From Mesostigma viride (lineage: Eukaryota > Streptophyta > Mesostigmatophyceae > Mesostigmatales > Mesostigmataceae), in contig RPFO01000213.1 in NCBI GenBank assembly GCA_009746045.1, positions 8,375,314 through 8,439,313 of the forward strand: 64,000 bases of DNA, in the 5' to 3' direction. Made by a program: the position numbers and the translations under genes. Positions within the stretch are counted from its first letter, which is position 1. Each line of letters opens with the position of its first letter. Under the pieces are notes generated by a model. That model saw only the letters and a list, made by a program, of their open reading frames with translations. It ran no database searches and was not told the DNA's origin. This document shows, one piece after another, positions 551-40,163 of this stretch.

Positions 551-605
551 ATAAGGGATCTGTACATACCTTGAGTGCTATAATGACAATAAAAGATTTT
601 CTCTC

Positions 606-1500
606 TTGTATGACATTGCCTCAAGGTTGCATACCATGTTTGGCCATGCAGCTCAGTCTTTGCAAGTTGCTAGACGGCTGGGAGGAAGTGAGTTGTACTC
701 CATCTGCCAACAGGTTGCTCAAGCTTGCAAGTGCAGGCTAGTTGCTAGAAAGCCCAAGCAGTCTCATGCCAGGACTCCTATTTTGCAGCCAGGCCATGTG
801 CAGGTAGATATTCAGAGAATCAGGGGTTTGAAGCTGCTGGTGGCAGTGGACAGATATACCAAGTACAAGACCCTAGAGATCCTGCCTGACATGGAGAAGC
901 CTACATTAATTGCTGCTCTGAAGTTGACAAGGAGCAGGTACCCTGGGTACGTTGGAGTTGTTGCAGTGTGACATTCAGTTTGAGTGCTGTGAGAACCTGC
1001 CAGAGTTTCCAGAGTTGCTGATTACACCCAGGGAGAGCCACGGCCAGCAAGGGGTGGTGGAGAGAGCCATCCAAGAGATCAAGACTGTGCTGCTGGTGGA
1101 GAGGATTCCAAGGACGTCATCTGCCATTGTGACATCTGCATGGCTACGTTCTGTGGAGGATAGGCTGAACCTCAGGACTCCCATGTTCTTTGGTGACATT
1201 GCCATCAATCCTCTTATGCTGTATACCAGGATGCTGCCAGCTGATGCTGAGCAGGCATGGAAGGAGAAGCTAGAGGCCAAGTTCCTCAAGCTGAGGCAGA
1301 AAGACAAGGGCTGGAGTGTCCTAGAACCTAACGTTGGACAACAGGTTGTTGTGTGGAAGGAACCAAGCTTTCCAGGGAAACGTGGCAGCTGGCATGATGG
1401 GGTGGTGACCCGAGTAGAAGCCGCTGGCCATAAGTGCTGGGTGGCCATTGATGGCTCCCAAGCAGTGCACCGTCTGTCCTGGTCAAAGATCCGTCCCCGG
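606..1500 (+). pseudogene. int: Copia-type integrase, frameshifted
   Basis: The integrase core inserts element DNA into the host. A His/Cys-rich zinc-binding N-terminus is recognisable at about 606-760 (GHAAQS and later CQQ, CKC). The RNase-H-fold core follows with a first Asp in VQVDIQRIRG and VAVDRY (about 800-860), a second in LQCDIQFEC (about 958-985), and the terminal Glu in the SHGQQGVVERAIQEIK block (about 1,036-1,083), which matches the h.NG..ERa signature. The reading frame changes near 950: one frame ends in TGA at about 969 and the continuation overlaps it from 952. The gene is therefore broken inside the catalytic core. Confidence 0.75.
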
Positions 1501-1740
1501 GGAGGTAATCAAGGAGACCTCTTCCAGGTGCCCGCTGGTGTACAAGGCGGGGGTGACGTGGAGCTTCCTGATCAGGGTGCTACAGCTGTATCGAGCCCTC
1601 AGGGTGACCCTGGCCCGGCCCCTGGGGTACCTTCACATACGGTGGTTGGGCAAGCAGGCGGACAGGCTGCACCTCCGGAACGGCCCGACACCAGGCCTAG
1701 GGGTGTGCGTCTATCAGATATTGTACTATCTTTGCAAAGA

Positions 1741-2151
1741 GCCAAGAAGGAGCCTAAGGTGTCCAAGCTTGTCCAGTTGGATGAACCTGAGGTAGCTGCC
1801 ATGGAGATAGATACCAATGCGCAGGTTTCTGTCATGGGACCTCAGCATACAGGAGAACTGCTGGTCGGAGAACCAAGTTGCCCCTGGGTGTCTGATTTCA
1901 GTGGTAGGACGCATCTAAGGGTGTTGGGAGAGGTTACTGCCCCTGTCATGGGTGTGGATGTGACCTTCCTTGTCCTAGAGGACTATGATGGCCCTGTGAT
2001 TTTGGGTCAGAATTTTCTGGGCAATCCTGGGATTTCTATCAGAGCTACAGCTCTGAAGAGATGGCTGGGGGATGATTCCCCTAGAAAATTTCAGGACAAC
2101 ATTTCCAATCAGGTGCAGGGTCAAGCCGGTCAAGGGTGTAAAATGGGATGA
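1741..2151 (+). pseudogene. Retropepsin-like segment downstream of integrase
   Basis: In the same frame as the integrase C-terminus, an MEIDTNAQVSVM stretch (1,801-1,836) resembles the start of a retropepsin, where a D-T/S-G triad is usual; here the third residue is Asn. A later block, YDGPVILGQNFLGN (about 1,984-2,025), resembles the ILG-x-D/N-FL motif near the end of retropepsins. Together they suggest an aspartic protease fold of about 90 residues. In Ty1/copia the protease normally precedes integrase, so this position is odd. The frame ends with TGA at 2,149. The match is by motif only and could be coincidental. Confidence 0.45.
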
Positions 2152-2299
2152 AGGGGAGGTGCCCCCAGCAGCCAGTTTGGTGATTCCAGCTGTGTTGCAC
2201 CCCAGCAGTATTGGCATAACTCACAGGAGCCTTGCTGCACACTCTCCTTTGACATATGACCAGGGTCCAAGAGATGAGCTCGCCTACTTTGTTTGAGGC

Positions 2300-3330
2300 T
2301 TGGAAGCTCGCCTTCTCCAAGGCATTGGAGGAGTGGTTGCAGTTTCAGTGAGCTGCACCAACAGACAGACGTCCCCCAGCATCAAGGAAGCTTGCTTTGA
2401 GATTTGTGCTGAAGAGGAAGGTTGTGGATGAGGTATCAGTGCCCCATGTCAGGCCTGTCCTGAATGAGTATCACGGCACGGGGAGTCTGCCAGGAGAGGA
2501 GCTGTATACGCCAGGGATGCTACACGACACATGGAGAATTTTGCTATGTCTCTACGTGGGGTTGCTTAACAGGGGAGCAGCTATGTCATCAGTGCTGCTG
2601 GACTTCAAGAGGGCATTTTTAAAATCTGATCCAGAAGTGGCCAGGAGGGTGTGGAAGCAGGATGAGCCTTACTGTGTTGAGGTGCCTGCCATCTGGAAGC
2701 TGGAGCTGCATCAACAATTCCTGGTTATTCTGAAGGGCCTGGAAGGACTCAGGTCGAGCCCAATCATCTGGAGACTCACGCTGCAGGAAGCTCTGATCAG
2801 TGAGTGTGGCTTGAGAGTGTCTTCAGTTGATCCCTGTTTGCTGCTGGCCCAATGGGAGGGTCTGCCAGTATATGCTAGTTTGCATGGAGATGATCTGCAT
2901 TTGCTAGCCCCCACGACCTGGCTGAAGAAGTTTATTCCTGTCATCAGTGGCAAGTTTTCACTGGGCAAGGATCGAGCTGTGGCAGGAGCCCAACAAGCCT
3001 GTAGTGTTCTGTGGAATGCAGGCTACCCTGTTCAGGAGGGACGGGGAGTGGAGTATCAGGCTTCAGGCTGGAGGAGATTATAAACAGACCATTGTGAAGG
3101 CCTTGCCAGAGAAGATCACCCAGGCTGCAGGACCTGAGTTGAGAGGCATGTGGGCCTGGTTTGCCAGCATCTGTGGTCCGTCTTTGATGGTCCATAGCAG
3201 AATGCCTGATGAGGTGCTTGAGGATGAGAAGCCTCGAGTCATAGCCCGGTTGGTGGAGAGTACCCCTGATCTGATTTTGTCTGGGATTGACTTTGCCCAG
3301 CCTATCACCTTGGAATCTTTGTTGACAGTT
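2300..3330 (+). pseudogene. RT: Copia-type reverse transcriptase, frameshifted
   Basis: The segment encodes RNA-dependent DNA polymerase motifs. LRFVLKRKV (about 2,393) corresponds to the copia KWVFKxK block. SSVLLDFKRAFLK (about 2,588-2,626) carries the first catalytic Asp. LKGLEGLRSSPIIW (about 2,730-2,772) is the copia KGLYGLxQSPxxW block. LHGDDLHLL (about 2,879-2,905) is the catalytic double-Asp motif, with His-Gly where copia elements usually have Tyr-Val. After about 2,950 the connection region continues in another frame (VVFCGMQATLF and a later DYKQTI block). No ATG-initiated intact frame covers the domain. Confidence 0.8.
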
Positions 3331-3332
3331 CC

Positions 3333-3803
3333 ATGGATGCTCGCCAGGTTACCAAGGTCAGGGGGAGATCTGCTGCTCTGTTTGCTTTCTATCAGAGCAG
3401 GGCAAGTTTGTTCAGCTGGTACAGCAGACTGCAGAAGAGGGTCTGTATCAGTTCAGAGGTGGCAGAATGCAGGGCCATATGCGAGGGGATCCAGTCCAGC
3501 CTGTACATAAAGGAGTTAATGCTGGAGCTGGCTTCAGTTACCCCTTGGACCTTGCAGATGGAGACGTTATTGCTAACAGACAGCATGGGTATGGTCCAGT
3601 TTGTTCACAAGCAGCTGGCCAGAAGCCGGGACCTGGATTATTTGTTGCTGAAGGAGTTGGCCAGTTTGGTTGACTTGAAGCATATCCCTGGCGAGGAGAA
3701 CCCTGCTGATGCATTGACAAAGCTGCCACACAAGGCCCCAGCCCAGTACAATATACTGAGGAAGATCATGAATGCTGACTGTCAAGTCGGTCTATCTGTC
3801 TAA
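3333..3803 (+). pseudogene. RH: Copia-type RNase H
   Basis: The final enzymatic domain removes RNA from the RNA:DNA hybrid. Visible landmarks are SWYSRLQKRVCISSEVAE (about 3,414-3,465), equivalent to the WxSxKQxxVxxSSxEAE block, LTDSMGMVQFV (about 3,573-3,605) with the next catalytic Asp, and IPGEENPADALTKLP (about 3,684-3,728), the standard copia C-terminal ADxxTK motif. The frame is open for about 156 codons and stops with TAA at 3,801. It is out of frame with the connection region before it, so it is part of the same dead polyprotein. Confidence 0.8.
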
Positions 3804-12171: not shown

Positions 12172-15100
12172 CTATGGTTGTTTCACATAATATTCGCACG
12201 GTATCACAGCTTGGTACAGAATTTCTGGTGGCCCCCTAACTGTTGCTGACGAGGGAGGCAAGACATGACTGGTCACCAAGGCAATCTCAACCTCGGTCAT
12301 CACCAACTGCATGCCAGGTGGCAGGTTGAGACTCCCAGGGTGGCCCTGAAGGAGATCAGGGAGGTTGCAGAAGAAGCTGCTGCCAAGGTGCCACACACGA
12401 GCTGGAAGTTTGTCAAGATCTCTCTGGCTCCTCCAAAGGTAATGTTTTACAAACCCCTCCCACCAGGCATTGCGGAACAGACACCGTGACCAGAGCAAAT
12501 CCTCACACAGGTATGCTCTCTTATGTTCTATGGGGCGCCAGGGTGAGCCATCCACCAGTGGCACGATTGTAGACTCACAAGTCTTGCCCTGCATGACTGT
12601 ATGACTTCCACCCTTACCGGGCTCACTGCGGACTTCACGCTGCAGGTTGGCCCCTTGGCCTCGGTCGATTCCCCCCTGCCCACACGATCTTGACACGAAG
12701 CACCAGGCGTCCCGTAGCAAGCTCTTACGGGCACCCTTAATCACCTTCATGAGGTCTACGTGCCACTGGCAGCCATGCACGGGTGTGTTATGGCTGACAT
12801 CCGGCTTCTGCCACGTACGATGATTTGAAGGTACCAGCCGCCTGGTTCCCGCTGCATCTGCACCACCGCCATCACCCAGAGAGAAAGTGTTGTTTGCTGT
12901 CATGGCCGCTGTCTCAACGACCCTAGTCTTATAAGCGTCCTCTGGGCCCATCGCACCCATCACCTGCACGGTGCCAACGACGCGAAGCCAACGTGGATTT
13001 GACTCGGGGGGGCTGTACATCGAGAAATTCTGACTCAGATTGAGCACCCAGGCCACCTTGCCACCATCCAGCTTGCGGATCAAGTGCAGGTTTCCAGCAT
13101 TTTCCAGCACTGTATAAGCAAGCCACACCCATGCAAATGCCGCCACGAGCAACCGCAACGTGCTCTGGCACCAGACACCCAGCCGGCCCCGGCGCCTCCT
13201 TTCTGCTTGTTCCGGCATGCCCTTTTGCTTCTGTGGTTCCCCTGGCTGACCCACGGTATCATGCCTTCCACGTGCCCGAGACCCTACTTGGCTGACTGCA
13301 GGCAATCTATCCCCCAAGGGCAACCCCCCTTTGCGGCACGCAACTTTCGCGATGGGCTCTAGCTTGGATGACCCGACCACCGCAGTTGATGAGGTAGTAG
13401 ATGCTGACCACTCCAGCACCGCGGCGAGCCACATGGCTACCTGGTCATGCACCCAGCTGCATCGTGCCCTCAACAGCTGGCCCCCAGGCAGGAGGGATAT
13501 GACCTTGTCAGCAGCTGATATCCCTGTCAGGGCCTCCTTGCCATCCGTGAGCCACCAGCAGGGGCGTGGGGTAGCACCAACGGCCCGGTCCATCCCATGT
13601 TCATTGCCAACAGGACCTGTCACGTTGCCAGCATCAGAGCAGCCTGTCGTTCCTGCAAGCCTGCCACGGTCACGCTCCACGGGACCTGTAGCCAAGCCAC
13701 CTGCGCCAAGCTCATCGGGTGCATACTTGGGGGCCCAGTGAGGGGTGACGCGGCCAAAGGTAGCAGCGCTCACGAGGCAAGGCACCAGCGGAAGCAGGCG
13801 AGTGCCTCTGTCATCCCCCTCACACACTGGGCTGGTTGCCCCCGCTGCTGGCCCTTGCACGTACAGGGTGAATGCCACACCCAGCCAGTCGATGCCGGCC
13901 CCGACGTCATGTGGCTCTCTTCCGTCATGGATCGTGATGGGATGTGGCCTTGTTTGATCCGAAACAAGTCCTGCACGTGCAGGTGTGGCAGTGTCACCTC
14001 TGCCGTAGTCGCGACCGTGAGCTGGCACCTGCGCCGACCCTCTGCTCCGTCTCTTGCCCAGCCACTCCCAGAAAGGGGACGGCAGCAGCAGCAGCTTAGA
14101 GGTCATTCCCACCTGTGGGTGCAGCACCGGTGACATCATCGCCAGGATCCCCATGTGCAGAGACATCAGCAGCAGCACCGGCACGAGGCGAGGCCACCGG
14201 TTCGCGCGCGTCCCCAGCACCATCACCGGTGATGCCATCTCCACCACCATGGCGGCCGCGGTCATAAACTACAGCACGCAGCGTGGCATGTGGTATAATA
14301 ACAGCTCGGCCGGCAGGGACCGCACTCTGTGCCCGTACGCCAGTGAATAGTACACGGCGCTCAGCTCGGGCGGTGTCCACTCGGGCATGGCGTGCGGGTA
14401 CAGCCGGTTGAACACCACGAGGATGTAGACCAGGGCCACCTGCAGGGTGACGCCGACCGTGGCTGCGCTAAAGTAGAGGTGCTCTTTCCCGTCACTAGCG
14501 CCGCCACTTGCGCTGCAGCTCTGTGAGGTGGCCCCTGACTCATGGTGGGATGGTCTTCGTACAACCGGCTTGCGGGCAGCATCATGGCCGCGGCGGTCCG
14601 CATGCGCGCGCTCTTCATCCGTATGGCAACCAGGTTGCGGGGGATGCGCCTCGTCGCTGCACACGTTCATGGGAGAGCCGGAAACGACCATGGATGCACG
14701 AGTTGGGCCGCCGGGGTGGTGGATACTGGCAACGGCACCCGTGCCATGATATCTCGCGGCTGGCCATGGCCATGGCCTCGCGCTGCCATCCACCACACTG
14801 GCCTGGCCGTCGGGCCTGCGTAGCGCATCCAGGGACGCCCTGCGGCCCAGTGGCAGGAACATGCTCCACAGCAGCAGCAGCTGCAGGACGCGGTCGGAGG
14901 CACACAAGGAGGTGCGCCCCGCCTTGGCCCAGATTAGGGCAAAGGAGACCACGGCGGAGGACTGAGTGTGCAGGCCGAGCGTGAGGCACGCGGCCGCCAG
15001 AAACTGGACGAGGAGGAGCATTGCATGGAGCCAGTAAGGGCCGCGGTAAAAGACAACCGCGTGGAATAGGGCCTCAGCACGATGATCGTCGGCGGGCCCT

Positions 15101-15474
15101 CCCGTGGCGTTGGCCATGCCAGCGAGCCCAGAGACAATGCCAGGGTCGAGGACATCCGTGGGCGCGATGGGCGCCCCGTGACCGCTCGTCTGGAAGAGCA
15201 GGTCCAGGCCATCGCTCCACAGCCAGCATTCGTAGCAGAGAAGGAGGCCGACAAAAACGCGCCAGGTGGCGAGCGAGCGGATGTCGAGGGAAAAAGTCTC
15301 CTGCACATGGACCACCAGCTGTCGCACCGCCCGGGAAGCAAAGCCAGGGATGGGCTGGGTAGCGTGCTGCTGCGCGTAGCCCATCGTTGTACAGAAATAA
15401 TCAAAGACATGTGATGGGAAGTATGCGCTGGATAGCGCCCACCAGGTCGGAGTGAATGCAGGGATCACCAGCAC
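12172..15474 (-). CDS. HTTM-domain (VKGC-like) multipass membrane protein with one in-frame TAG
   Basis: About 1,100 codons form one frame on the minus strand, broken only by TAG at 14,271-14,269. HTTM proteins are membrane proteins related to vitamin-K-dependent gamma-carboxylase; the function here is unknown. The first part shows predicted membrane helices (for example WRVFVGLLLCYECWLW and HAMLLLVQFLAAACLTLGL) and the family block CASDRVLQLLLLW plus MFLPLGRRASLDALR. After the TAG the family pattern resumes at once with FMTAAAMVVEM, another helix (PRLVPVLLLMSLHMG), LLLPSPFWEWLG, a long low-complexity insert, a further helix near 13,120, and a C-terminal NLSQNFSMYSPP block. The frame stays open upstream of 15,474 to about 15,540, and the first ATG is near 15,386, so the true start is uncertain and may lie in another exon. 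It may be a recent pseudogene, a readthrough gene, or an assembly error. Confidence 0.7.
14269..14271 (-). other. In-frame TAG within the HTTM gene
   Basis: Codon phase is identical before and after it: 15,474 and 14,265 differ by 1,209, a multiple of 3. No plausible short GT-AG intron removes it. The terminal stop of the gene (12,174-12,172) is also TAG and is followed three codons later by TGA in the same frame. Confidence 0.85.
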
Positions 15475-15540
15475 GCACGCTGCTCTACCCAGGCTGCTGA
15501 AGAACCCGCTCTTCTTCCAGCCACTTCCGCAAAGAAAAAA

Positions 15541-16275
15541 AGCTTTGTTAAGGCAAAGAGTGACGAGACAAGTGCATCGGCTGCTGTCCTAGAAGAGGAC
15601 GCCGGCGCGCCAGCTGGTCACTCAGGGGAGGACGATCTTTATCAAGTCATGCATTGCCGCCTGCCCAACCCCCACTGTGGTGGTCACAAACCGCGCATGT
15701 GTACCCGTGGTCACAGGCCTGGGTCCCCTCTACCAAGACTTCATGCATGGTGCAGTGCATTACATGAGGCCACTATCGCAGAGTACACCATGTGCCACGG
15801 CCCTTCAAAAAGCATCCAACTACCAGCAAGGCACACAGCAGCAGGAAAATCCTAACTGCACGCACACAAACGCTTCCTGGCAAAGGGTTCAGTGGCCCGT
15901 CAACAGGAGGAAAAAATGGTTTCGGTCAAATGGAGGAGGAAAAAATGGTTTGTTTTTTTTTTGAGACTATAAATATGTATCCCTTATCCTTAAGTGTATT
16001 AAAAAACAACTCTCTGCTTGGGCGAGGGTAGTTCCGGTGGCAAACGCAGGGGAAGTGGCGCGGGGGGGGGGAGCGGCCTCTGAGAAGTAAGGAATACTAA
16101 GCGAAAATGCCACGTAGGGGCACAAAGAGAGACTGAACTGAATCGTACTAAGTTACCGCGAATGAGGGGAAGAAGGGCTAGGGGAGGGAAAGGAGTAGCG
16201 ACGAATCGAGTGAACTGGAGACGAAAATGGGTCGTGGGGTGCCCGGAGCTGAGCTGTTCGAAGAGACGGGAAGAC
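15541..16275. other. Non-coding stretch upstream of HTTM gene
   Basis: No gene was recognised. Presumably holds the promoter and any 5' exon of the minus-strand HTTM gene. Includes homopolymer runs near 15,950 and 16,060. Confidence 0.4.
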
Positions 16276-17010: not shown

Positions 17011-18055
17011 ACTGGTTGTGGGATACACTGCACGTTCCTGGTTGTGGGATGTGTTCCTTGTTGTGGGATACTTGTTCCTGGTTGTGGGATGCACGTTCCT
17101 GGTTGTAGGATACTTGTTCTTGGTTGTGGGATACACGTTCCTGGTTGTGGGATGTGTTCCTTGTTGTGGGATACTTGTTCCTTGTTGTGGAATGCACGTT
17201 CCTGGTTGTAGGATACTTGTTCCTGGTTGTGGGATAGTCGTTCCTGGTTGTGGGATACTTGTTCCTGGTGGTGGGAAACACGTTCCTGGTTGTGGGATAC
17301 TTGTTCCTGGTTGTGGGATACTTGTTCCTGGTTGTGGGATACTTGTTCCTCGTTGTGGGAAACACGTTCCTGGTTGTGGGAAACACGTTCCTGGTTGTGG
17401 GAAACACGTTCCTGGTTGTGGGAAACACGTTCCTGGTTGTGGGATACACGTTCCTGGTTGTGGGAAACACGTTCCTGGTTGTGGGATACACGTTCCTGGT
17501 TGTGGGATGTGTTCCTTGTTGTGGGATACTTGTTCCTGGTTGTGGAATGCATGTTCCTGGTTGTAGGATACTTGTTCCTGGTTGTGGGATAGTCGTTCCT
17601 GGTTGTGGGATACTTGTTCCTGGTGGTGGGAAACACGTTCCTGGTTGCGGGATACTTGTTCCTGGTTGTGGGATACTTGTTCCTGGTTGTGGGATACTTG
17701 TTCCTGGTTGTGGGATACTTGTCCCTGGTTGTGGGAAACACGTTCCTGGTTGTGGGATACTTGTTCGTGGTTGTGGGATACACGTTCCTGGTTGTGGGAT
17801 ACTTGTTCCTGGTTGTGGGAAACACGTTCCTGGTTGTGGGAAACACGTTCCTGGTTGTGGGAAACACGTTCGTGGTTGTGGGAAACACGTTCCTGGTTGT
17901 GGGATACTTGTTCCTGGTTGTGGGAAACACGTTCCTGGTTGTAGGATACTTGTTCCTGGTTGTGGGATACTTGTTCCTGGTTGTGGGATACTTGTTCTTG
18001 GTTGTGGAATGCACGTTCATGGTTGTGGGATAGTCGAGCCTAGTTGTGGGATGTG
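17011..18055 (+). repeat. 21-bp minisatellite, left arm
   Basis: About 50 units, mostly 21 bp, of the type TTCCTGGTTGTGGGATACT, with a two-state variable part (TACTTG or AACACG after GGGA). The unit length is a multiple of three, so several frames on both strands stay open and give false heptapeptide-repeat proteins. Confidence 0.95.
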
Positions 18056-18069
18056 TTCCTGGTCCAAAT

Positions 18070-21775: not shown

Positions 21776-22740
21776 ACCAGGAACACATCCCACAACTAGG
21801 CTCGACTATCCCACAACCAGGAACGTGTTTCCCACAACCAGGAACGTGTTTCCCACAACCAGGAACGTGTTTCCCACAACCAGGAACGTGTTTCCCACAA
21901 CCAGGAACAAGTATCCCACAACCAGGAACGTGTATCCCACAACCAGGAACGACTATCCCACAACCAGGGACAAGTATCCCACAACCAGGAACAAGTATCC
22001 CACAACCAGGAACGACTATCCCACAACCAGGAACAAGTATCCCACAACCACGAACGTGTTTCCCACAACCATGAACGTGTTTCCCACAACCAGGAACGTG
22101 TATCCCACAACCAGGAACAAGTATCCTACAACCAGGAACGTGTTTCCCACAACCAGGAACGTGTTTCCCACAACCAGGAGCAAGTATCCCACAACCAGGA
22201 ACAAGTATCCCACAACCAGGAACGTGCATCCCACAACCAGGAACAAGTATCCCACAACCAGGAACGTGTTTCCCACCACCAGGAACAAGTATCCCACAAC
22301 CAGGAACGTGTTTCCCACAACCAGGAACGTGTTTCCCACAACCAGGAACAAGTATCCCACAACCAGGAACGACTATCCCACAACCAGGAACAAGTATCCC
22401 ACAACCAGGAACAAGTATCCCACAACCAGGAACGTGTTTCCCACAACCAGGAACGTGTATCCCACCACCAGGAACAAGTATCCCACAACCAGGAACGACT
22501 ATCCCACAACCAGGAACAAGTATCCCACAACCAGGAACGACTATCCCACAACCAGGAACGACTATCCCACAACCAGGAACAAGTATCCTACAACCAGGAA
22601 CGTGTTTCCCACAACCAGAAACGACTATCCCACAACCAGGAACAAGTATCCCACAACCAGGAACGTGTTTCCCACAACCAGGAACAAGTATCCCACAACC
22701 AGGAACAAGTATCCCACAACCAGGAACAAGTATCCCACAC
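21776..22740 (-). repeat. 21-bp minisatellite, right arm, inner block
   Basis: About 46 units of the ATCCCACAACCAGGAACAAG type, inverted relative to 17,011-18,055. The right-arm array is split by repeat R at 22,741-22,992. Confidence 0.95.
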
Positions 22741-22960
22741 CCTTGCTATGATATGCTCACATGGGTCTTATTGCACCCACAGTTTGCCGGATCGTTAGCC
22801 TGTCCTTTTAGCTAGCCGCGCCCGATTGCAGCTGTGGCATGCCTTTGGCATGAAGGAGACTGGGGGTCTCTGCCCTTTCTCCTGTAGTGCACACACAGGG
22901 ATTAACAGCACTTCGGTGCTCCGTGACTCCCCAACGGGAGCACGAGTTTAATTAATTAAT
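22741..22960 (+). repeat. Repeat R, copy 2 (empty-site copy), inserted in minisatellite
   Basis: Interrupts the 21-bp array and ends with the hairpin motif and a (TTAA)n tract (22,950-22,992). It lacks the 43-bp insertion of copy 1 and therefore shows the uninterrupted target. Confidence 0.85.
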
Positions 22961-22989
22961 TAATTAATTAATTAATTAATTAATTAATT

Positions 22990-23798
22990 AATCCCACAAC
23001 CAGGAACGTGTTTCCCACAACCAGGAACGTGTTTCCCACAACCAGGAACAAGTATCCCACAACCAGGAACGTGTTTCCTACAACCAGGAACGTGTTTCCC
23101 ACAACCAGGAACGTGTATCCCACAACCAGGAACAAGTATCCCACAACCAGGAACGTGTTTCCTACAACCAGGAACGTGTTTCCCACAACCAGGAACAAGT
23201 ATCCTACAACCAGGAACGTGTATCCCAAAACCAGGAACGACTATCCCACAACCAGGAACAAGTATCCCACAACCAGGAACAAGTATCCCACAACCAGGAA
23301 CGACTATCCCACAACCAGGAACAAGTATCCCACAACCAGGAACAAGTATCCTACAACCAGGAACGTGTTTCCCACAACCAGGAACACATCCCACAACCAA
23401 GAACTGCTATCCCACAACCAGGAACAAGTATCCCACAACCAGGAACAAGTATCCCACAACCAGGAACAAGTATCCCACAACCAGGAACAAGTATCCCACA
23501 ACCAGGAACGTGCATCCCACAACAAGGAACGTGTATCCCACAACCAGGAACAAGTATCCCACAACCAGGAACGACTATCCCACAACCAGGAACGTGTTTC
23601 CCACCAGCAGGAACAAGTATCCCACAACCAGGAACGACTATCCCACAACCAGGAACAAGTATCCCACAACCAGGAACGTGCATCCCACAACAAGGAACGT
23701 GTATCCCACAACCAGGAACAAGTATCCCACGACCAGGAACAAGTATCCCACAACAAGGAACACATCCCACAACCAGGAACGTGTATCCCACAACCAGT
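22990..23798 (-). repeat. 21-bp minisatellite, right arm, outer block
   Basis: About 38 units continuing the right-arm array up to the terminal inverted repeat. Confidence 0.95.
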
Positions 23799-29393: not shown

Positions 29394-29740
29394 CATTGGG
29401 GCCAGGCGGACAGCAGAAATTGGGGGCGTGGGGGCACGCCACGTAGTCACCTCCGCGAGGAGACTGGACTGCGCGAGTAGCGACGAACTGCGGCAGGGGA
29501 ACTGCGGGCTGCCGGGGTGTGGGGGGGTCCGTTAATCTGGGTGGGTGGGGGGGTGCGGGGGTGCGGGGTGCGGAGAATCGGCGGTGGGGGAAAAGCTGAC
29601 GCGTCCGCGTCAGCTTGGGGGGGATGTGCCTTGTTAAATATGTATCTATGCTTATTCGTTCCTTTTTTTTTTTTGAGACTATCGATGTGCACATGTGGTT
29701 TGGCTGAGCTTAGCCGCCTAGCGGCTAAGCTTAGGTAAGT
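29394..29740. other. Non-coding stretch with a strong hairpin
   Basis: Holds G-rich runs at about 29,515-29,580, a poly-T tract at 29,662, and an 11-bp-arm hairpin with a CTA loop at 29,707-29,731. GTAAGT, a consensus splice donor, follows at 29,735-29,740, immediately before the satellite. Confidence 0.6.
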
Positions 29741-30945
29741 GTGGGGCATGCCTCCTCTCAAGTTTCAGCCCAATCCAAGCTCGTTTGCATATTTTAGGAC
29801 CCTGGCCCACCCCTAACGGTGGGCACGTGCTAGCGCGCAAGGGACCATCGCACCGCCTGGCCATGTCCACCCCCCCAAACGATGGACCTGCGAGCCCCCA
29901 CTTTGCACACATGATGGACTAGTGTGGGGCATGCCTCCTCTCAAGTTTCAGCCCAATCCAAGCTCGTTTGCATATTTTAGGACCCTGGCCCACCCCTAAC
30001 GGTGGGCACGTGCTAGCGCGCGTAAGGGACCATGGCACCCCCTGGCCATGTCCACCCCCCCAAACGATGGACCTGCGAGCCCCCACTTTGCACACATGAT
30101 GGACTAGTGTGGGGCATGCCTCCTCTCAAGTTTCTGCCCAATGCAAGCTCGTTTGCATACTTTAGGACCCTGGCCCACCCCTAACGGTGGGCACGTGCTA
30201 GCGCGCGCTAGGGACCATGGCACCCCCTGGCCATGTCCACCGCCCCAAACGATGGACCTGCGAGCCCCCACTTTGCCCACATGATGGACTAGTGTGGGGC
30301 ATGCCTCCTCCCAAGTTTCTGCCCAATCCAAGCTCGTTTGCATATTTTAGGACCCTGGCCCACCTCTAAGGGTGGGCACGTGCTAGCGCGCGCTTGGGAC
30401 CATGGCACCCCCTGGCAATGCCACCCCCCCAAACGATGGACCTGCGAGCCCCCACTTTGCACACATGATGGACTAGTGTGGGGCATGCCTCCTCCCAAGT
30501 TTCAGCCCAATCCAAGCTCGTTTGCATGTTTTAGGACCCTGGCCCACCCTAAGGTGGGCACGTGCTAGCGCGCGCTAGGGACCATGCACCCCTGGCCATG
30601 CCACCCCCCCAAACGATGGACCTGCGAGCCCCCACTTTGCACACATGATGGACTAGTGTGGGGCATGCCTCCTCCCAAGTTTCAGCCCAATCCAACCTCG
30701 TTTGCATGTTTTAGGACCCTGGCCCACCCCTAACGGTGGGCACGTGCTAGCGCGCGCTAGGGACCATGGCACCCCCTGGCCATGTCCACCCCCCAAACGA
30801 TGGACCTGCCAGCCCCCACTTTGCCCACATGATGGACTAGTATGGGGGAAGCCTCCTCCCAAGTTTCAGCCCAATCCAACCTCGTTTGCATGTTTTAGGA
30901 CCCTGGCCCACCCCTAACGGTAGGCAGCCTTCCCCCACACTAGCG
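29741..30945 (+). repeat. ~184-bp satellite array, left (about 6.5 units)
   Basis: Unit starts (GTGGGGCATGCCTCCT) lie at 29,741, 29,924, 30,109, 30,294, 30,478, 30,658 and a variant at 30,840, giving periods of 180-185 bp. Each unit contains GGGCACGTGCTAGCGCGCG. The array ends in a ~65-bp segment (30,925-30,989) that also terminates the right array. It lies just before the first visible helicase exon and is probably intronic. Confidence 0.95.
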
Positions 30946-31070: not shown

Positions 31071-34000
31071 CTGAAATGGCAAGCTCCCGAGCGCGCGTTG
31101 AGGGACGTCAACAACGAGGTGCGTCATTGTCGAATTGTCGCCATTGTTTTCCATTCGTTTGATGTAGCGTGCTTGGGGAGGGGGCGTGTGCTAACCGACC
31201 GCGGCGGCTGCGATCTTGTGCTGGCGCTCGCAGGTGATCGTGTGCGAGGGCCACACGGCGCGATGGTGGCTCATGCCGCGCGTGACGCGCGTCTTCACGC
31301 GCATGTACGACCCCGACCTGCGCAACCCCGAGCTCTTCTACCTGCGCGTGCTGCTGGAGAAGCGCGCCGCGCACTCGTTCGAGGAGCTGCGCACCGTGGG
31401 CGGCGTGTTGCTCAGTAACGAGATGGCGTGCCGGCGGCTGGGCCTGCTCGAGGACGACGACGCGGCGGTGGAGAGCATGCGCATCGCCGCGCGCCGGCTG
31501 GAGACGCCGTACGCGATGCGGCGGCTGTTCGTCATCCTCGTGCTGCAGAAGCTGAGCACGATGAGCGCGCTGTGGCGGTTCAAGGAGGAGATGATGAAGG
31601 ACCACCTGTTCTACGCGTACGAGGACGTGCACGGCGGGGTGGGCCGCAGAGCCAAGCAGCCCATCACGCTCGAGGACCGCGAGGCCGCGCTCGCGCGCAC
31701 GCTCGCCTACCTGGACAAGCGGCTGTCGGCCTACGGCTACGACGTCTGGGAGCTGGAGCCCGTGCTCAAGTGCCGGCGCGACAGGGGCGAGGACGTGTGC
31801 CGGCGCAAGCGCAAGCACGACGACGACGACGACGCGAACATCCTCGCGCCCGACCTGAGCAAGTTCTCTCTCGTGCAGCGCGAGGCGTACGAGACCTTGC
31901 TGCTGGCGATCAAGGGGCTCAGCCCGGACCGCCGGCTGTTCGTGGACGGGCCCGCGGGCACGGGCAAGACCATGGTCATCAACGCGGCGATGCAGCAGTC
32001 CGCGCGCGACGGCTTCAAGGTGGTGCCGATGGCGTTCACGGGCGTCGCGTCGCTGCAGATGTGGGGCGGCCACACGTCGCATCACGCGTGCGGGTTCCCG
32101 CTCGAGCTCGACCTCGAGTACGGCTGCCGCGTGACGCGCAACTCCGCCAGGGGGCGCACGCTGTTGGAGGCGCACGCGCTCGTCGTCGACGAGATCGGCA
32201 TGATGAACGTGGAGCTGATCCATCTCTTGCACGAGCTGCTGGTCGAGCTCACCTTTGTCAAGGAGCCGTTCGGCGGCAAGGTCGTCATCTTCGCCGGCGA
32301 CTTCCGGCAGGTGGCGCCCGTCGTCAAGGGCGCCAGCGAGCTGGCGACGGCCGACGCCAGCGCGGTGCGGTCGCCACAGTGGGTGGGCGTGCACCGGCTG
32401 CCGCTCGAGTTCAACTACCGCGCGCGCGAGGACCCGGAGTACGCGCAGTTTGTCGCCGACGTCGGCATGGACAACGTCGCGTACGAGGCGGTGATCGACG
32501 ACCGCACGCACCAGGAGGTGGCGATGATCCCGCTGCGCATGGTGCAGCCGGTCAAGGACGAGGACGAGCTGATCGCGCACACGTTCCCCAACGTCAACGA
32601 CGCGAACGCGTGCATGCGGTCCTCGATCGTCGCAGTGACCAACAAGGCGTGCGACGACATCAACGCGGCTGTCCTGGCCAAGCTGGAGAACCAGGAGCGC
32701 AGCACGTTCAGCCACGACCGCGTCGCCAAGTCGGGGGAGAGGGTCTCCATGAGGACCCTCAACTGCGCGCGTCAAGACGGCGTCCCCGACCACGAGTTCA
32801 AGTGGAAGGTGGGCGCGGTGGCCATGATCACGCGCAACCTGTCCCACAAGGACAGGTTGCAGAATGGGACGCGCGTCGAGCTCGTAGACGAGCAAGACGG
32901 CGCGTTCCTCGTGAAGACGCCGGACGGGGAGCTGCACGCGATCCCGCGGATCGCGTTCAGCATCGACGCCGACAAGTTCAAGATCCTCAGGATGGCCTAC
33001 CCTTTCAAGGTACGTGGGCGCGCGCAGGGAGGGGCGGGGTGAGCGCCATGCGGTGTCGTTGCTTGCGGTGTCGGCTCACGCCTTGCGATCGTATGACTTG
33101 CGGTGGCCTTGGCTGAATGCTCCCTTGCTTTCCTCGATGTCTTGCTTGCTTACGTCCGCGCGTTTGTATGGTCGTCGCGCAGCTGGCGTATGCGGTCACG
33201 ATCAACAAGTGCCAGGGGCAGACGCTGGAACGCGTCGGCCTCTGGCTCAAGCACGACGTGTTCGCGCACGGCCAGCTTTACACGGCGCTCACGCGCGTGG
33301 GCGCGAGGGGGCACATCCGGGGCTTGTTCGGCTACGAGTTCGATGGCGTCGGCTACAGCAGGAACATCGTCAACTGGACGATCCTGCAGGGCGCGGGCAT
33401 CAACATGCGCAACAAGGCGGAGGACCGCGTCAAGGCGCGCATCCGGAGGCGCCAGCGAGGCCGGCGCCGCGCACAGGCATCCGACGACTGGGAGCTGCCG
33501 GACCCGATGAGCGGCGAGCCCCAGGACAACGAGTATGACAACCCCGACGACGAGGACACGTGGGAGCTCGGGGATGACGAGGCGTGTGCGGAGGCCGACC
33601 AGGCGTGCGCCGATGACGCGGCCAAGAGGCGGTGGAGGCAGGTCGTCGAGGAGCCACTGTGGGCGGACTTCATGCTGGAGAGCGACGGCGAACAGGATCG
33701 CGACATCCTGCGGCAGGACGGCTTGATGTCCGACGGCGAGCCTGAGGAGCCCGAGCTGCTGTTGTACGAGGGTGGCGACAGCGACGAAAACGAGGGCGTG
33801 CCCGACCTAGGTGACTGTGAGGATATGGTAAGCATATGCTGACTGTGAGGATATGGTAAGCATATGCCGCCGCCGTCGTCACGAGATGAAAGCCTCCCTT
33901 GGCTGCACCGAGCGTGCGCGCCCGCTGCTGACGCATCTCGTGCGCGTGTGACCTCGTGCGTGGCCGTGTGCGTGCCGCGTTGTTTTGGCGCTCAGGGGCT

Positions 34001-34515
34001 GGACGAGTACGGCGACCCGCTTGACGACGACCGCTGCGACGCGCCGTCGGCGCCCGACGACTTTTGCGAGGAGGTGAGTGCTGCTGGCCCATCTCGCGTG
34101 CTAGCGCCCTGTTCCGCGTCCACTCGTCCTCCTTTTTGTTGCTCACATTCGCCTCCGCGATCGCTTGCCGACCCTCACAGGACGACGACTCCGGGCTGGG
34201 CGCCGCCCTCGACGACTTTCGCGACTGCGTGGGTCAATTCGACGACTACCCCTACGTACGTTTCCCGGTGCCGCCGTCTTTCTTGACGCGCGTTTCCTAC
34301 CTCCGCCTACCTTTGCTGCGCGCGCCACGCGTCCAGGGACGCTGAGCCGATCGCCGTTCGATGCGGTTGCGTGTCGTGCGATTTTTCCCTTGCAGGACGA
34401 TGACGACTCGGACCACTCGTACGCGGATATCCGATCGGGCCCTGAAATCGGGCACGTGGCCGTGGGAGCGAAATGCCCTCCGGATTTCACGATGGAGGAG
34501 CGCGACGCGATAGCG
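31071..34515 (+). CDS. Helitron-type SF1 (Pif1-like) helicase, six exons
   Basis: Exons by GT-AG splicing, all phase 0: 31,071-31,118, 31,234-33,009, 33,183-33,827, 33,996-34,073, 34,181-34,255 and 34,396-34,515 (914 codons). The second exon opens with the Helitron pre-helicase block: [20 protein letters not shown], then LRTVGG and [11 protein letters not shown]. Helicase motifs follow: GPAGTGKT (Walker A, 31,948-31,971), [10 protein letters not shown] (Walker B, about 32,177-32,206), [10 protein letters not shown] (about 32,290), then across the third intron [15 protein letters not shown] (33,183-33,227) and LYTALTRVG (about 33,276). Helitron helicases unwind DNA during rolling-circle transposition. 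The C-terminus is a highly acidic Asp/Glu-rich tail spread over four small exons. No Rep/HUH nuclease was found upstream, where a satellite fills the sequence, so the start is unknown. The last exon can splice in frame to the protease region at 35,620. Confidence 0.85.
33813..33868 (+). repeat. 28-bp tandem duplication carrying a splice donor
   Basis: GGATATGGTAAGCATATG occurs twice, at 33,821 and 33,849, so the GTAAGC donor of the third exon is duplicated. Using the second donor would pass through an in-frame TGA at 33,840-33,842, so only the first donor is productive. Confidence 0.85.
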
Positions 34516-35619
34516 GTGGGTCTTTGAGCTTGCAGCGGTGACTCTTCCACTTCCCTTGCTAGCCGTTGCCAGCGCGCTCTCGGTGCAGGGCACGTGCTAG
34601 CGCGCGCGAGGCACCATGGCACCGCCTGGCCATGTCCACCCCCCAAACGATGGACCTGCGAGCCCCCACTTTGCACACATGATGGACTAGTGTGGGGCAT
34701 GCCTCCTCCCAAGTTTCAGCCCAATCCAAGCTCATTTTCATATTTTAGGACCCTGGCCCACCTCTAAGGGTGGGCACGTGCTAGCGCGCGCTAGGGACCA
34801 TCGCACCCCCTGGCCATGTCCACCCCCCCAAACGATAGACCTGCGAGCCCCCACTTTGCACACATGATGGACTAGTGTGGGGCATGCCTCCTCCCAAGTT
34901 TCTGCCCAATCCAAGCTCGTTTGCATGTTTTAGGACCATGGCTCACCCCTAAGGGTGGGCACGTGCTAGCGCACGCAAGGCACCATGGCACCGCCTGGCC
35001 ATGTCCACCGCCCCCAAACGATGGACCTGCAAGCCCCCACTTTGCACACATGATGGACTAGTGTGGGGCATGCCTCCTCTCAAGTTTCAGCCTGATCCAA
35101 GCTCGTTTGCATATTTTAGGACCCTGGCCCACCTCTAAGGATGGGCACGTGCTAGCGCGCGCTAGGGACCATGGCACCCCCTGGCCATGCCACCCCCCCC
35201 AAACAATAGACCTGCGAGCCCCCACTTTGCCCACATGATGGACTAGTATGGGGGAAGCCTCCTCCCAAGTTTCAGCCCAATCCGAGCTCGTTTGCATATT
35301 GTAGCACCATGACCCATCCCTAACGGTGGGCACGTGCTAGCGCGCGCTAGGGACCATGGCACCCCCTGGCAATGCCCCACCCCCAAACGATGACCTGCAA
35401 GGCCCCACTTTGCCCACAAGATGGACTAGTGTGGGGCAAGGCTGCTCCCAAGTTTCAGCCTGATCCAAGCTGGCCCACCCTAACGGTAGGCAGCCTTCCG
35501 CCACACTAGCGTTATTGCATGGTGCGCAAGGGACCATGGCCCCCTCTGGCATGCGTTCGCTGACCTCGCCTGCCCACTCGCGATCGCGTTCACGGTGCTT
35601 GTCGATTGCGCGGTCGCAG
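34516..35619 (+). other. Predicted 1.1-kb intron filled by satellite
   Basis: The donor GTGGGT at 34,516 follows an exon ending DAIA. The acceptor GGTCGCAG ends at 35,619, followed by GCCGCGATGG. Phase is 0 on both sides, like every other intron of this gene. Most of the intron is the ~184-bp satellite. A separate downstream gene starting at the ATG at 35,626 is the alternative. Confidence 0.55.
34588..35512 (+). repeat. ~184-bp satellite array, right (about 5 units)
   Basis: Unit starts are at 34,690, 34,877, 35,063, 35,246 and 35,431 (periods 183-187 bp), with a partial unit before. The array closes with the same terminal segment as the left array (CAGCCTTCCGCCACACTAGC, then the CTCTGGCATGCG end). 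Confidence 0.95.
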
Positions 35620-38600
35620 GCCGCGATGGTGTTTTCGTCGGACGAGGAGGAGGACGTTGGAGACAACGATGCCTCACGGGATTCGGAGCGCGGTCCCGCT
35701 GACGGGCGCGAGACGACCGTCGACGCCGCGCCGGGCGGGCCTGTCCCGGCGGTGGCGGGTCAGGTGCCGGCTGGAACGCACGGGGACGCCGCACCGCACG
35801 CCGCTGCGGCCGCCGGCGTGCCGGGTGACCCCATCCTTGGGACAGCGGACCCTGCAGACCCAACGCTCGTGGGGACGGCGCGCGAGCATGGCCGGGACGT
35901 CGAGGGTCTCCTGACGCACGTGCGCGGCGTCCTCGCGGCGTGCCGAGCGCTGCTGCCGCGACTGCAAGGGGTCCCACTCGGCGCGCCGCCTCGCCGCGAC
36001 CCCGTGGAGGCGCTGTACGCGAAGCTGTGCGCGTCGCGGGCGCGCGGCGAGCTGGGCGGGCAGGACCGGCTGCGCTTTGATGGGGGCAGGGACGGCCTGG
36101 CCGGGTTCGGGGCGGCCTCGCTTGCGCCCGCCGAGTTCGCGATGACGCTGCTCCTGTGGTCGCGCGAGCACGTTGGCGGCTCGCCGCCGCTGCTGGTGAG
36201 CGACGAGTGCGAGCAGCTGCGCGGGCTGTTGGGCGGGGACGGCGACGTCGCGGACGTGGTGCGCCGGTTGCTGGCGCACGCGGATGCGCACACGTTGGTC
36301 GAGCGCACACCGTGCTGCGTCGACGCGCGCTGCGAGGCCGCGGCGGACGAGAGCGCGCTCGACTTGGTCGACCTCGGCGCGGGCGAGGGGACGCTCGCGG
36401 AGCGCATGGCGGCGCTGCTGAGGCGCGGGCGGCCGGATGGCGCCTGCGTGGATTGCGGCGAGCCGGGCGCCAGCCGCGGGCGCCACCTCGATGGCGGGTT
36501 CCCTGCGAGCGTGCTGTTCCACGTCGCGGGCGGGGCGGACTTGCGCGCGTGCGGGGGGGCTGCCTGCCGTCGTCGCTTGACGTGCGCGTCGTGGACGGCC
36601 CTCGTGGGCAAGAGGTCGCCGCGGTCGCGCGCCTGCGTGGCTTTGTGCAGGTAAGGGCCGGCAGCGGACTCGTTTTCTGCCGCGCCGTCGACGGCGAGGC
36701 CAGTCGGTTCCGAGTCGTCGACGCGCTCACGGGCGGCGTCACTGTGGAGACGCTGCGGCTGGATGACCTGGAGCAGCCCGTACTCGTGTGCATGTACGCC
36801 GTGACAGCGGCCGAGGACCCGGCGAACGCGCGAGTCGTGGCCCTCGCAGGCAGCCACCTCTCCCGGGGCTGCCGGCGAGCGCGCTGCCACTGCAGAGAGG
36901 AGGCGCGAGGAGGACGCCACGGCCCCTGCTGCCGCTCAGGTGGCTCCTTGCCAGGAGCGGACGGGTTGCGGCGCTTGCGCCATGTTCGATCGGCTGATGG
37001 CGTCGCACGGCCACGTCCGGCTGTGCGCCGACCGCACGCGCACGTTTTCCTGGCGCGACAACTGCTGCCACATGAACGCGGCGCTCGAGTTCGTGTGCGA
37101 GCTGCTGCTGCTGCTGCAGACGCCCGCCGTGTCGGGCTTGCGATTCCTGACGTGCTGCGCCGCGGGAGAACCCCACGACTGGGGCTGCGAGCTGGGGCTG
37201 GAGCTGCTGCGCTGCGTGCTGGGGTCGCGCAAGGGCGGGGCCGAGAAATGGACGCGCGGCGCGACGCGGTGCTGCGCGTGCTCGACAGGCACTTGCCCGG
37301 GCGAGTGGCCGCCGACCCGGACGACGCGTATGACAACATGAGGATGCTGATGCAGCACGTGGCGGCCGGCGGCCCGCGCTGCGGCGAGCGCACCTGCGAG
37401 CTCGGCGTCAGGTCGGACGACGGCCCGGTGGAGCTGCCGCTGTTGGTCATCGACTGCCATGACGAGTGGGACGTCGCGACGCGCCTCGCGTCGGTGTGCC
37501 GAGAGTACGCGCCGGACGTTCCCGTGGCTTGCGGTCTGTGCCAGCAAAAGGACTGCGTCGCGCTGCGCCACTACGACGAGCTGCCGCGCGTGCTGCCCTT
37601 CGGCCGCCTGAACCAGCTGCCGCCCGGCGCCTATCGCGGGGCGGGCCTGCCAGAGACGATGCAGCTGACCCTGTCGGTCGGGCCGGCGCGGCGGCAGGTG
37701 CGCGTGACCGCGCGGCTGCGGGCCGTGGTCGAGCACACGGGCGGCCACTTTGTGCTGCTGCGCCGTCGACGAGCGGGCGCGCGGTGGGAGGTGGTGGACG
37801 GGCTCGCCAAGTTGGACGGCGTGAGCCACCGCGACCACGTCGACTTGGCGCGGCTCGCGAGGCTGACGGACGCCTGCTGCTACGTGCTGGATGAGCAGCC
37901 GGGCGCGACGCCGGCGCTCGACGAGATGGACTGCGACGACGGCGTCGCCGCGCACACGCTCGTCGGGGACAGCGAGTCGGCCGTCGTGCGGGAGTGTTGG
38001 CAGGACTTCGTGCACCTGCAGGACGCGTGCGAGGGCCTCGCGCTGCGGCAGCGCAGCGACGTGGCGTTCAAGGGGCCGCTGTCCGCCCCGCTGGAGCTGC
38101 TGTACGCGGTGCTGTGCCGCTGCCAGGCGCAGAGCGCCGCGCGCGACCTGCGCTGCGTCACCTTCGACCGGGCGGGGCAGGTGGGCGGCGCAGGGGACGT
38201 GGGCGCGCGGTTTGCGCTGGCGCTGCTCATGGCCGTGTGGCAGCGCGCGCAGGGCACGCAACAGCACGTGGACGCGGCGTCCGGCGAGCTGGAACGCGCG
38301 CTGGCGGCGTTCGAGCGGCGCGGCGACGACGGGTCGCTGCTGTTCTCGCTGGAGCTCATGCTGTCACACGTCGACGCCCCGCGGTTGGTCGAGCGCGGTC
38401 CGTGGTGCGTCGCGTGCGGCCAGCCTGTCGGCACGGTCGTCGAGACCGAGCTGCCCTTGGTCGACTTGGCGCGCACGACGGGCGGCCTGACGCATCTCAT
38501 CGCGGCGGCCGTCAAGGAGCGCGTGTCCACGGGCGAGTGCGCGGCGTGCGGGTTCGCCTGTTGCCAGAGCTTGCGCAGACTCCACGGGCGCTTGCCCGCG

Positions 38601-40163
38601 TGCCTCGTGTTCCGCGCTGCCGACGAAGCGGTCTTGAGCGCGGGCAGGGTCCCGCCGGACCGCTTCTCAGACTGGCTTGCCCTCGGCGACGACCACGAAA
38701 TCGAGGTGGACCTGCGCCTCTGCGGCTTCGTCCAGCGCACGTCCGGCGACCGCCTCTCTTTCTGGCAGCGCGCCTGCGACACGCCCGACGGCTGGTGGGT
38801 CAGCGACGGCACGGGACCGGCGCGGCGGCGGCGCGACCGGGACTTGGCGGGCGGGGCGGCCACGGAGATGGTGTACGCGTACGAGGTGGCGGCCGCGGCC
38901 GGCGCCGCCTACTATGACGAGGACCTCGGCGACGCGGCCGATGCCCCCTTGGACGCGCCGGCGCCACAGGAAGCAGAGCGCGCGCCGCGTTCGCCCGTCG
39001 TCGTCGACGGCGATGGCCAGGACGAGCGTGCCTCGCACGCAGCGCCCGTCCGACCCATCGATGTGTCGCGCGATGACGACGTCGCCATCGACACGGAGTC
39101 CCTGACGCGACCGCTGGCAGCGGCGCCGCGCGACGACGACTGTGTGAGGACGGGCGAGGGGCAGGACACCACGCCATTCGCGTTCCGACCGCGCAGGGCC
39201 GCGCAGCAGCAGCCGCTGGTGGCGGACTGCCATCGGTTCGTCACCTTCTTGCAGCAGAACGGCGGCGCGACTCTGCCTCCGAACCCGCGCGGCTCGTACA
39301 AGTGGGGCGAGAACAGCTGCCCCACCGACGCGGCGCTGGGGCTGCTGTACTTGGCGCTGGCGGTCACCAAGGAAGGTCTGCGCCTGCTGACGTGCCACCG
39401 CGCGGACGAGTCGCACGGCGACGCGTGCGCGCTCGGGCTGCTGCTGCTGTTCTGCATGCACGCGTCCAGGACCGGCAACGTGTCCATCATGACGCGCGCG
39501 AGGGAGGCGGTGCGGCCGCGGCTGGACGCGTCGCTGGGGAGGGCCCGCGGCGCGATGGACAGCGTGACATCTACCGCCGCGGGCCTGCTCCGGTACGTGG
39601 ACGGCGTGGTTCCTCGCCAGGGCGACTTCGCCTGCCGGGCGCCGTTCCCGGTCGACGGTCGGCTCGTCGACGTCAACAAGTTCACGCTCAGCCCGTGGGA
39701 AGCCGACCGCATGGACATCGACGAGCGCATCGCGGCCGCGTGCACGCAGGAGCGCATGGGCGCGCGCCCGCCGTGCCACCACTGCGGGTCGCCCCGCTGC
39801 GTGCCTCGACGCTACTTCGACCGAGTGCCGCCCGTGCTCGTCTTTCTGAACGTCTCCAGCCACCTCCCGCTGATCAACTACGTCGGGAGCGGGCTGCCCA
39901 AGACGCTGGAGATGACCCTCTACATCGGCCGCGCGTGCGTGCAAGTGCGCGTCGCCTTGCGGCTGTGCGGGGCGGTCGAGTACCGCCCAGCGCACTTTGT
40001 CGTCTTGCGGCCGGTGGACTTGGACGCGGGCACGTGGGAAGAAGTGGACGACGGCCCGGGGCTGTGCGCCCCAGTCATCCGCATCCACCCGCGCATGAAC
40101 CTCGTCGCCCTGGCCACCAAGACGACGGCGTGCGCGTACTCCGTGACGGTGCTCGATCGGTGA
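35620..40163 (+). CDS. Four tandem USP-like (peptidase C19-fold) domains, C-terminal part of the helicase locus
   Basis: About 1,510 codons end in TGA at 40,161. Four units alternate. A1 (about 36,000-36,820) and A2 (about 38,060-38,920) keep the helix-like PVEALYAKLC or APLELLYAVLC start, Cys pairs and a terminal strand-rich part, but lack the catalytic Cys. B1 has RDNCCHMNAALEF (about 37,053) and EHTGGHFVLL (about 37,734). B2 has ENSCPTDAALGLL (about 39,309) and EYRPAHFVVL (about 39,979). The latter pairs resemble the Cys and His boxes of ubiquitin-specific proteases, and CxxC pairs resemble the USP zinc ribbon. Acidic and Asp/Arg-rich linkers separate units. The frame changes near 36,550 (in a run of seven G), about 36,830 and about 37,240, so the first half is broken in this sequence. 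From 37,245 to the end it is one uninterrupted frame. Activity is unproven. Confidence 0.65.

Follow-up and report, generated by a model that had tools for sequence, protein, structure and literature searches.

A Helitron gene of Mesostigma viride with a C-terminal tandem array of predicted USP-fold domains

Rolling-circle transposons that carry deubiquitinases are already known in two forms, and they provide the background for the Helitron element that we describe here from Mesostigma viride, an early-branching streptophyte alga. The element lies in a stretch of 64,000 nucleotides, hereafter called the window (G000:C1:8375314-8439313, within a 440-Mb assembly of 2243 contigs), where a Helitron-type helicase is followed by four domains resembling ubiquitin-specific proteases (USPs). 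According to the excerpted text of Erven et al. (2022; PMC9741609), Helentron-type Helitrons carry a VTD deubiquitinase in the Rep-helicase open frame, with two copies in one studied element; VTD proteases form a class akin to the tegument proteins of herpesviruses, multi-copy inactive VTDs exist also outside transposons, and the elements bearing VTDs carry an AP endonuclease and are found in vertebrates, insects, cnidarians and molluscs. These elements resemble that of Mesostigma in having a deubiquitinase domain inside the frame of a Rep-helicase transposon, but they belong to animals and to another protease class, whereas in the Mesostigma element the predicted fold is USP, and the helicase is followed by up to five domains, inactive as well as active. 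Helitrons with OTU-type proteases, which the initial annotation of the window had mentioned, likewise have a ubiquitin-system cysteine protease fused to the Helitron protein; they differ in having the OTU fold, and the descriptions excerpted from the two sources contain no comparable array (PMC2836005; PMC9741609).

To these published cases our searches add a few database proteins. The Rep-helicase part of P0018, an annotated Mesostigma protein, retrieved 90 listed proteins (P0018 included), among which precomputed Pfam assignments comprise UCH in one (P0051), Peptidase_C48 in two (P0048 and P0108) and Herpes_teg_N in one (P0026, at 18.9 bits, below the curated cut-off of 25); the protease domain is N-terminal in P0051, P0048 and P0026, which were scanned. 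P0051, a metagenomic protein of 2220 residues (source ENA, 70 member sequences), is similar to the Mesostigma element in combining a USP (C19) with Rep and Pif1 in one protein, but its UCH domain occurs once, lies at the N-terminus (residues 101-357), is detected by Pfam and goes unmatched by our Mesostigma domain profiles, which gave no match at E<1 against the 89 other proteins. This Helitron protein with an N-terminal UCH domain is itself absent from the literature listings searched.

No USP in a Helitron was found in those listings, searches combining Mesostigma and Helitron included, and the array, used as query against protein databases, retrieved nothing outside Mesostigma (all 4 matches in one search and all 12 in another were Mesostigma proteins; these searches reach relatives sharing exact five-residue words with the query, about 8,000 candidates being scored each time). 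The earlier remark that a fourfold USP-like array is not known from other Helitrons holds within these searches. Deubiquitinase-bearing Helitrons are known with OTU and VTD domains; the alternating C-terminal USP array is new, and with it the deubiquitinases of rolling-circle transposons gain a further protease class, USP, as well as a further arrangement, in which inactive and active domains alternate in tandem at the C-terminus.

A Helitron and its relatives in the genome

The frame at 31195-33039 matches Pfam PIF1 (E 2.5e-36) and Pif1_2B, and the pre-helicase block and superfamily 1 (SF1) motifs can be recognised by eye, in agreement with the Helitron-type, Pif1-like helicase initially annotated here. 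A search of the same genome with this helicase matched 57 places on several contigs, the first 11 rows being 96-100% identical, the next three 82%, and further groups about 54% and 48% (hereafter the window family, the 82% subfamily, and the 54% and 48% families). Multiple dispersed copies are expected of a Helitron, as is the fusion of Rep with a Pif1-type helicase, which is found in the relatives P0018 and P0021 (both with Helitron_like_N and PIF1) and in locus L029; there the Rep domain is in the frame L029:4449-7139, upstream of another helicase copy (Helitron_like_N, E 2.8e-23), and in this frame GLPHAHVIF and YLNKYINKG can be read by eye. Database proteins named Mesvir1 correspond to the fetched loci in identical runs of at least 25 residues, all 448 residues of P0007 being present in L040, 1173 of the 1197 residues of P0016 in L036, and 777 residues of P0018 in both L019 and L020.

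The window copy lacks the Rep domain and begins at a tandem array of 185-bp units (array 1, from 29738). Between 18001 and 29737 the window has no stretch of at least 150 bp in common with the DNA upstream of nine other copies, common sequence starting at 29738, and we read the window copy as 5'-truncated. Array 1 probably lies in an intron, because in L029 the same array comes after the coding sequence of Rep and the pre-helicase region. To judge from its sequence, the copy in the window is what remains, truncated and non-autonomous, of an element that combines Rep, helicase and USP array. Helitrons typically start with TC, end with a hairpin followed by CTRR and insert between A and T. The sequence common to three copies stops near 41900 without CTRR, in a stretch that also has matches elsewhere.

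Three observations on the copies may be added. One 185-bp satellite fills two introns of a single transposon gene (arrays 1 and 2 in the table), with a similar right-hand edge by eye, and the core of its unit was not found in the fetched loci of the 82% subfamily and 48% family. In L025 (G000:C1413) two Helitron copies are fused at the equivalent of 35670/31367, the start of the array exon running into the helicase of the next copy, and in L015 (G000:C36) the helicase match sits inside an open frame of 16,305 residues.

The junction between helicase and array

Comparison among copies shows helicase and array as parts of one gene, at the level of sequence, in gene structure, fusion and domain pattern. 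Downstream sequence was available for 13 helicase copies (the window, C381, C682, two on C1413, C1424, C1513, a second on C1, C1690, C3, C1324, C1673 and C1435), and in 12 of them array sequence follows on the same strand, the remaining places of the 57 lying outside this count; the 13th copy, on C1413, ends at the position corresponding to 35670 and gives way there to a second copy. The further helicase-array pairs that the initial annotation proposed to look for are thus present, and with the array following in 12 of 13 copies we rejected chance adjacency.

The array could still be a separate gene, starting from the ATG at 35626 and merely travelling with the element. Several facts weigh on this side: in the window family a satellite-bearing stretch of 1104 bp, containing 4.8 copies of the 185-bp unit, separates the exon at 34396-34515 from 35620; P0010, P0011 and P0012 are annotated as stand-alone genes that begin at the array (P0010, the publicly annotated model for the copy in the window, is identical to the window frames from 35626 and from 36654); and in the 48% family the public models divide the locus into P0021 and P0007. 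In the 82% subfamily, however, the homologous intron has only 134 bp (L039:5113-5246, same phase), the array exon of L039 begins REAVFSSDE with no Met at its start, and in L036 no in-frame Met occurs in the array exon before about residue 96. L039, in which helicase exon 1 is 82% identical in amino acids to that of the window, has the same exon series from helicase exon 2, namely 648 bp, then 81, 72 and 159 bp, and then the array exon. In L040, of the 48% family, helicase exon 2 is separated from the array exon by two introns (124 and 135 bp), and since P0007 begins inside helicase exon 2, this model already unites the helicase tail with the array; its splice sites are those that we read independently in L040 over the first 414 of 448 residues, the last 34 coming from another frame. 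P0018 joins Rep, helicase and array in one chain of 2812 residues (Helitron_like_N, E 1.3e-26; PIF1, E 2e-43; three array domains).

Every intron in the exon models compared (window, L039 and L040) is in phase 0. Each of the six window exons between 31071 and 34515 is a whole number of codons long, with GT/AG ends, and the phase-0 join of 34515 to 35620, predicted in the initial annotation, is the very junction used in the annotated protein P0009 (five member sequences), its homologue being used in P0016 and P0017. Such comparisons support the splice and indicate that the 1.1-kb gap is an intron enlarged by the 185-bp satellite, across which we read the starts of P0010, P0011 and P0012 as annotation splits. 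Two separate genes are consequently very unlikely.

The region beyond the junction, originally described as about 1,500 codons long, does not form a continuous open frame in the window copy, which differs from L032 by 10 mismatches and three small indels; L032 has a single frame of 1609 residues across the array. Of the overall claim made at the outset, the fusion of helicase and array and the domain pattern stand, whereas the array of the window itself is broken and its Rep is missing.

Architecture, constraint and fold of the array domains

The repeat unit of the array has about 310 residues. In the window family the domains are ordered D1-D2-D3-D4. The 82% subfamily has D1-D2-D3 followed by another D3-like and then a D4-like domain, the D4-like one being visible in L036 alone since the other two loci end before that position; D3 of this subfamily has a frame switch in all three loci. 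The 54% family (P0018) has D1-D2-D3, and L040 of the 48% family two domains. N-x-C, His and Asp are kept in complete D2, D4, Da and Db in the alignment, and the mid-domain CxxC is complete in the active-type domains except Da and Db, the first Cys of which is missing in the alignment. The five-residue Cys box is absent from D1 and D3, and their His is replaced except in D1 of the 54% family (P0018, P0020), while their Asp is kept wherever the alignment covers the site. A Cys-His-Asp triad with its Cys and His boxes is found, therefore, in D2, D4 and their homologues, and not in D1 and D3, which bears out the initial reading of two Cys/His-box domains with two degenerate partners. A tree built from 14 domain rows (13 different) separates inactive from active types by a single branch (100/100); the D3 domains cluster together (100/99), as do the D1 domains of the three families (93/92). 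This topology fits an array that arose when an inactive-active pair was duplicated; the 48% family would then have lost the inactive type or descend from a form that never had it.

The ratio of non-synonymous to synonymous substitution rates (dN/dS), computed against the 82% subfamily with helicase exons from the window and D1 and D2 from L032, is 0.26 for helicase exon 1, 0.49 for exon 2, 0.42 for D1 and 0.43 for D2. The corresponding ratio of proportions (pN/pS) for D1 and D2 is 0.50 and 0.49 in frame and 1.05 to 1.58 off frame, the off-frame values of helicase exon 1 also exceeding 1. This comparison of sequences shows selection on D1 and D2, with similar constraint on the degenerate D1 and the active D2. 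The same cannot be said of D4, for which the 38% identity between the 82% subfamily and the window family and a dN/dS of 0.80 leave selection unsupported; the two D4 domains are probably not direct counterparts.

The fold was addressed with an AlphaFold model of D4 only. Among the rows listed for this model, 49 of 50 from VIA and 32 of the first 34 from Foldseek are titled USP-type, and in the row for 6lvs (USP14 C114S) the first aligned pair is 24 to 103, which in the absence of a gap would bring C35 to residue 114. Cellular USPs such as USP14, USP46, USPL1 and CYLD share with the array domains the predicted fold, the Cys-His-Asp order and, in most active-type domains, the mid-domain CxxC; they differ in being only 12-16% identical to the D4 model in the VIA rows, with no sequence-level match, and the Mesostigma array is tandem and transposon-borne. 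No VTD or other papain-like family appears among the VIA and Foldseek rows listed, which do not exclude a VTD fold.

A number of results speak against a USP fold. Of the five D4 models only the best reaches fair confidence (67.7), the other four scoring 50.4 to 52.9; residues 135-197 of the best model are below 50; and all its Foldseek TM-scores are <0.45. An earlier, shallower model of D4 (8 rows; predicted local distance difference test, pLDDT, 54.8) had no row titled USP among the 50 VIA rows listed, which were mostly helical proteins. The Pfam UCH profile was unmatched, four scanned proteins giving no family at E<=10, and neither single-sequence nor profile search found a USP in PDB, while NCBIfam searches with the array domains gave nothing relevant. 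Two designed helical proteins, the sole matches in PDB (best E 0.0086), were taken as chance. PROSITE-type USP signatures, scored against 400 shuffles each, matched 8 of 9 positions in the D2 His box (0/400 shuffles as good) and in the Cys box of D4 from the 82% subfamily (1/400), but only 5/9 and 4/9 in window D4, no better than shuffles; given these mixed scores and the poor Cys box of the positive control P0051 (5/9, with a His box of 9/9), the signatures are not used as support. We consider the USP fold of D4 to be predicted with moderate confidence: the profile and structure searches that had been suggested favour it through the D4 model, and not through any sequence match in Pfam, PDB or NCBIfam.

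Proposed role of the array and alternative explanations

Our preferred reading, to which we give a probability of roughly 0.62, is that of a Helitron gene with Rep, Pif1-type helicase, acidic linker and C-terminal USP-fold array, the active domains of which would act on the ubiquitin system and protect the transposition complex. Complete copies would encode these parts as one large protein, the array having an inactive-active-inactive-active pattern in the window family. D2 and D4 may cut ubiquitin or a ubiquitin-like protein, and D1 and D3 may be pseudo-enzymes in a scaffold role, binding ubiquitin or the modifier or positioning the active domains. Because of its attachment to Rep, the array would most likely act on the transposition complex. 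The Rep of Helitrons is a HUH nuclease, and HUH nucleases bind DNA covalently through tyrosine, so that a fused array could shield Rep from ubiquitin-dependent removal; it might strip ubiquitin from the Rep-helicase protein, or from covalent Rep on DNA, and thus allow degradation to be escaped during replication. The alternation of degenerate and apparently working domains suggests that the element interferes with the host ubiquitin system, and the original notion of a rolling-circle transposon with deubiquitinase-like modules in a repeated degenerate-active pattern is supported.

Instead of ubiquitin, the USP-fold domains might remove a related modifier such as SUMO, in the manner of USPL1, with modified factors of repair or transposition as their substrates; USPs in complex with ubiquitin rank just as high in the VIA listing and the sequence decides no modifier, and we regard a SUMO-like substrate as rather unlikely. 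The array could also have no enzymatic role at all, being captured host cargo in decay, as might be thought from the broken window copy, the missing Cys box in half of the window domains and the different domain numbers among lineages. Against such decay stand its presence in four lineages (window, 82%, 54% and 48%), the single open frames in L032 and L040, the dN/dS of 0.42-0.43 for D1 and D2 with off-frame controls >1, and the catalytic residues kept in complete active-type domains, which together make decaying cargo quite improbable.

Four classes of protease for ubiquitin-like modifiers are now seen in fusion with Rep and helicase, two of them (OTU and VTD) in published work and two (Ulp1 and USP) in the present analysis, and a need of transposition complexes to resist ubiquitin-dependent removal thereby becomes testable. 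Going beyond the preferred reading, it is conceivable, with the odds clearly against so wide a claim, that an array of pseudo-enzymes and enzymes, derived from one duplicated pair of an inactive and an active domain, protects the covalent intermediate of Rep and DNA when the host clears DNA-protein crosslinks by a ubiquitin-dependent route, and that the repeated captures of OTU, VTD, Ulp1 and USP are convergent answers to this host defence.

Table. Parts of the window copy (window positions; the end of D1 and the limits of D2 are transferred from L032)
Feature	Position	Strand	Remarks
185-bp tandem array 1	29738..30926	.	Tandem Repeats Finder, 6.5 copies; 5' limit of window copy
Pre-helicase exon, 48 bp	31071..31118	+	GT/AG ends, phase 0
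Helicase exon 1, PIF1-like SF1 helicase	31234..33009	+	Pfam PIF1, Pif1_2B; dN/dS 0.26 vs 82% subfamily
Helicase exon 2, last SF1 motifs and acidic tail	33183..33827	+	Phase 0; P0009 ends exon at 33797, also phase 0
Acidic linker exon	33996..34073	+	Homologue L039:4515-4595
Acidic linker exon	34181..34255	+	Homologue L039:4707-4778
Last linker exon before array	34396..34515	+	Homologue L039:4954-5112; present in P0009
Probable intron, 1104 bp	34516..35619	+	Contains array 2 of the 185-bp unit (34588-35471); L039 homologue has 134 bp
Array exon through stop codon	35620..40163	+	Three small indels vs L032, where one open frame
D1, degenerate USP-like domain	35899..36818	+	Cys box missing, His replaced, Asp kept; dN/dS 0.42 on L032 copy
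D2, USP-like domain with Cys, His, Asp	36949..37904	+	Frame switch inside D2 in window copy; dN/dS 0.43 on L032 copy
D3, degenerate USP-like domain	37992..38903	+	Alignment, tree
D4, USP-like domain with Cys, His, Asp	39216..40160	+	Alignment; predicted USP fold

Rfam and tRNA scans of the window gave no match. Elsewhere in it, broken frames of a copia-like retrotransposon occupy 555-3803, with integrase, reverse transcriptase and RNase H-like stretches seen by eye and only a sub-threshold Agenet match in Pfam, and long open frames at 12172-15588 (minus strand), one with HTTM-like hydrophobic stretches by eye, have no Pfam match. Tandem repeats of 21 bp lie in opposite orientation at 17034-18063 and 21776-23797, both adjoined by 26-bp and 52-bp arrays, and the segment 44300-64000 is a tandem array of units of about 4.1-4.6 kb in five spaced copies, with stretches of 1.4-1.9 kb of a 30-bp minisatellite.

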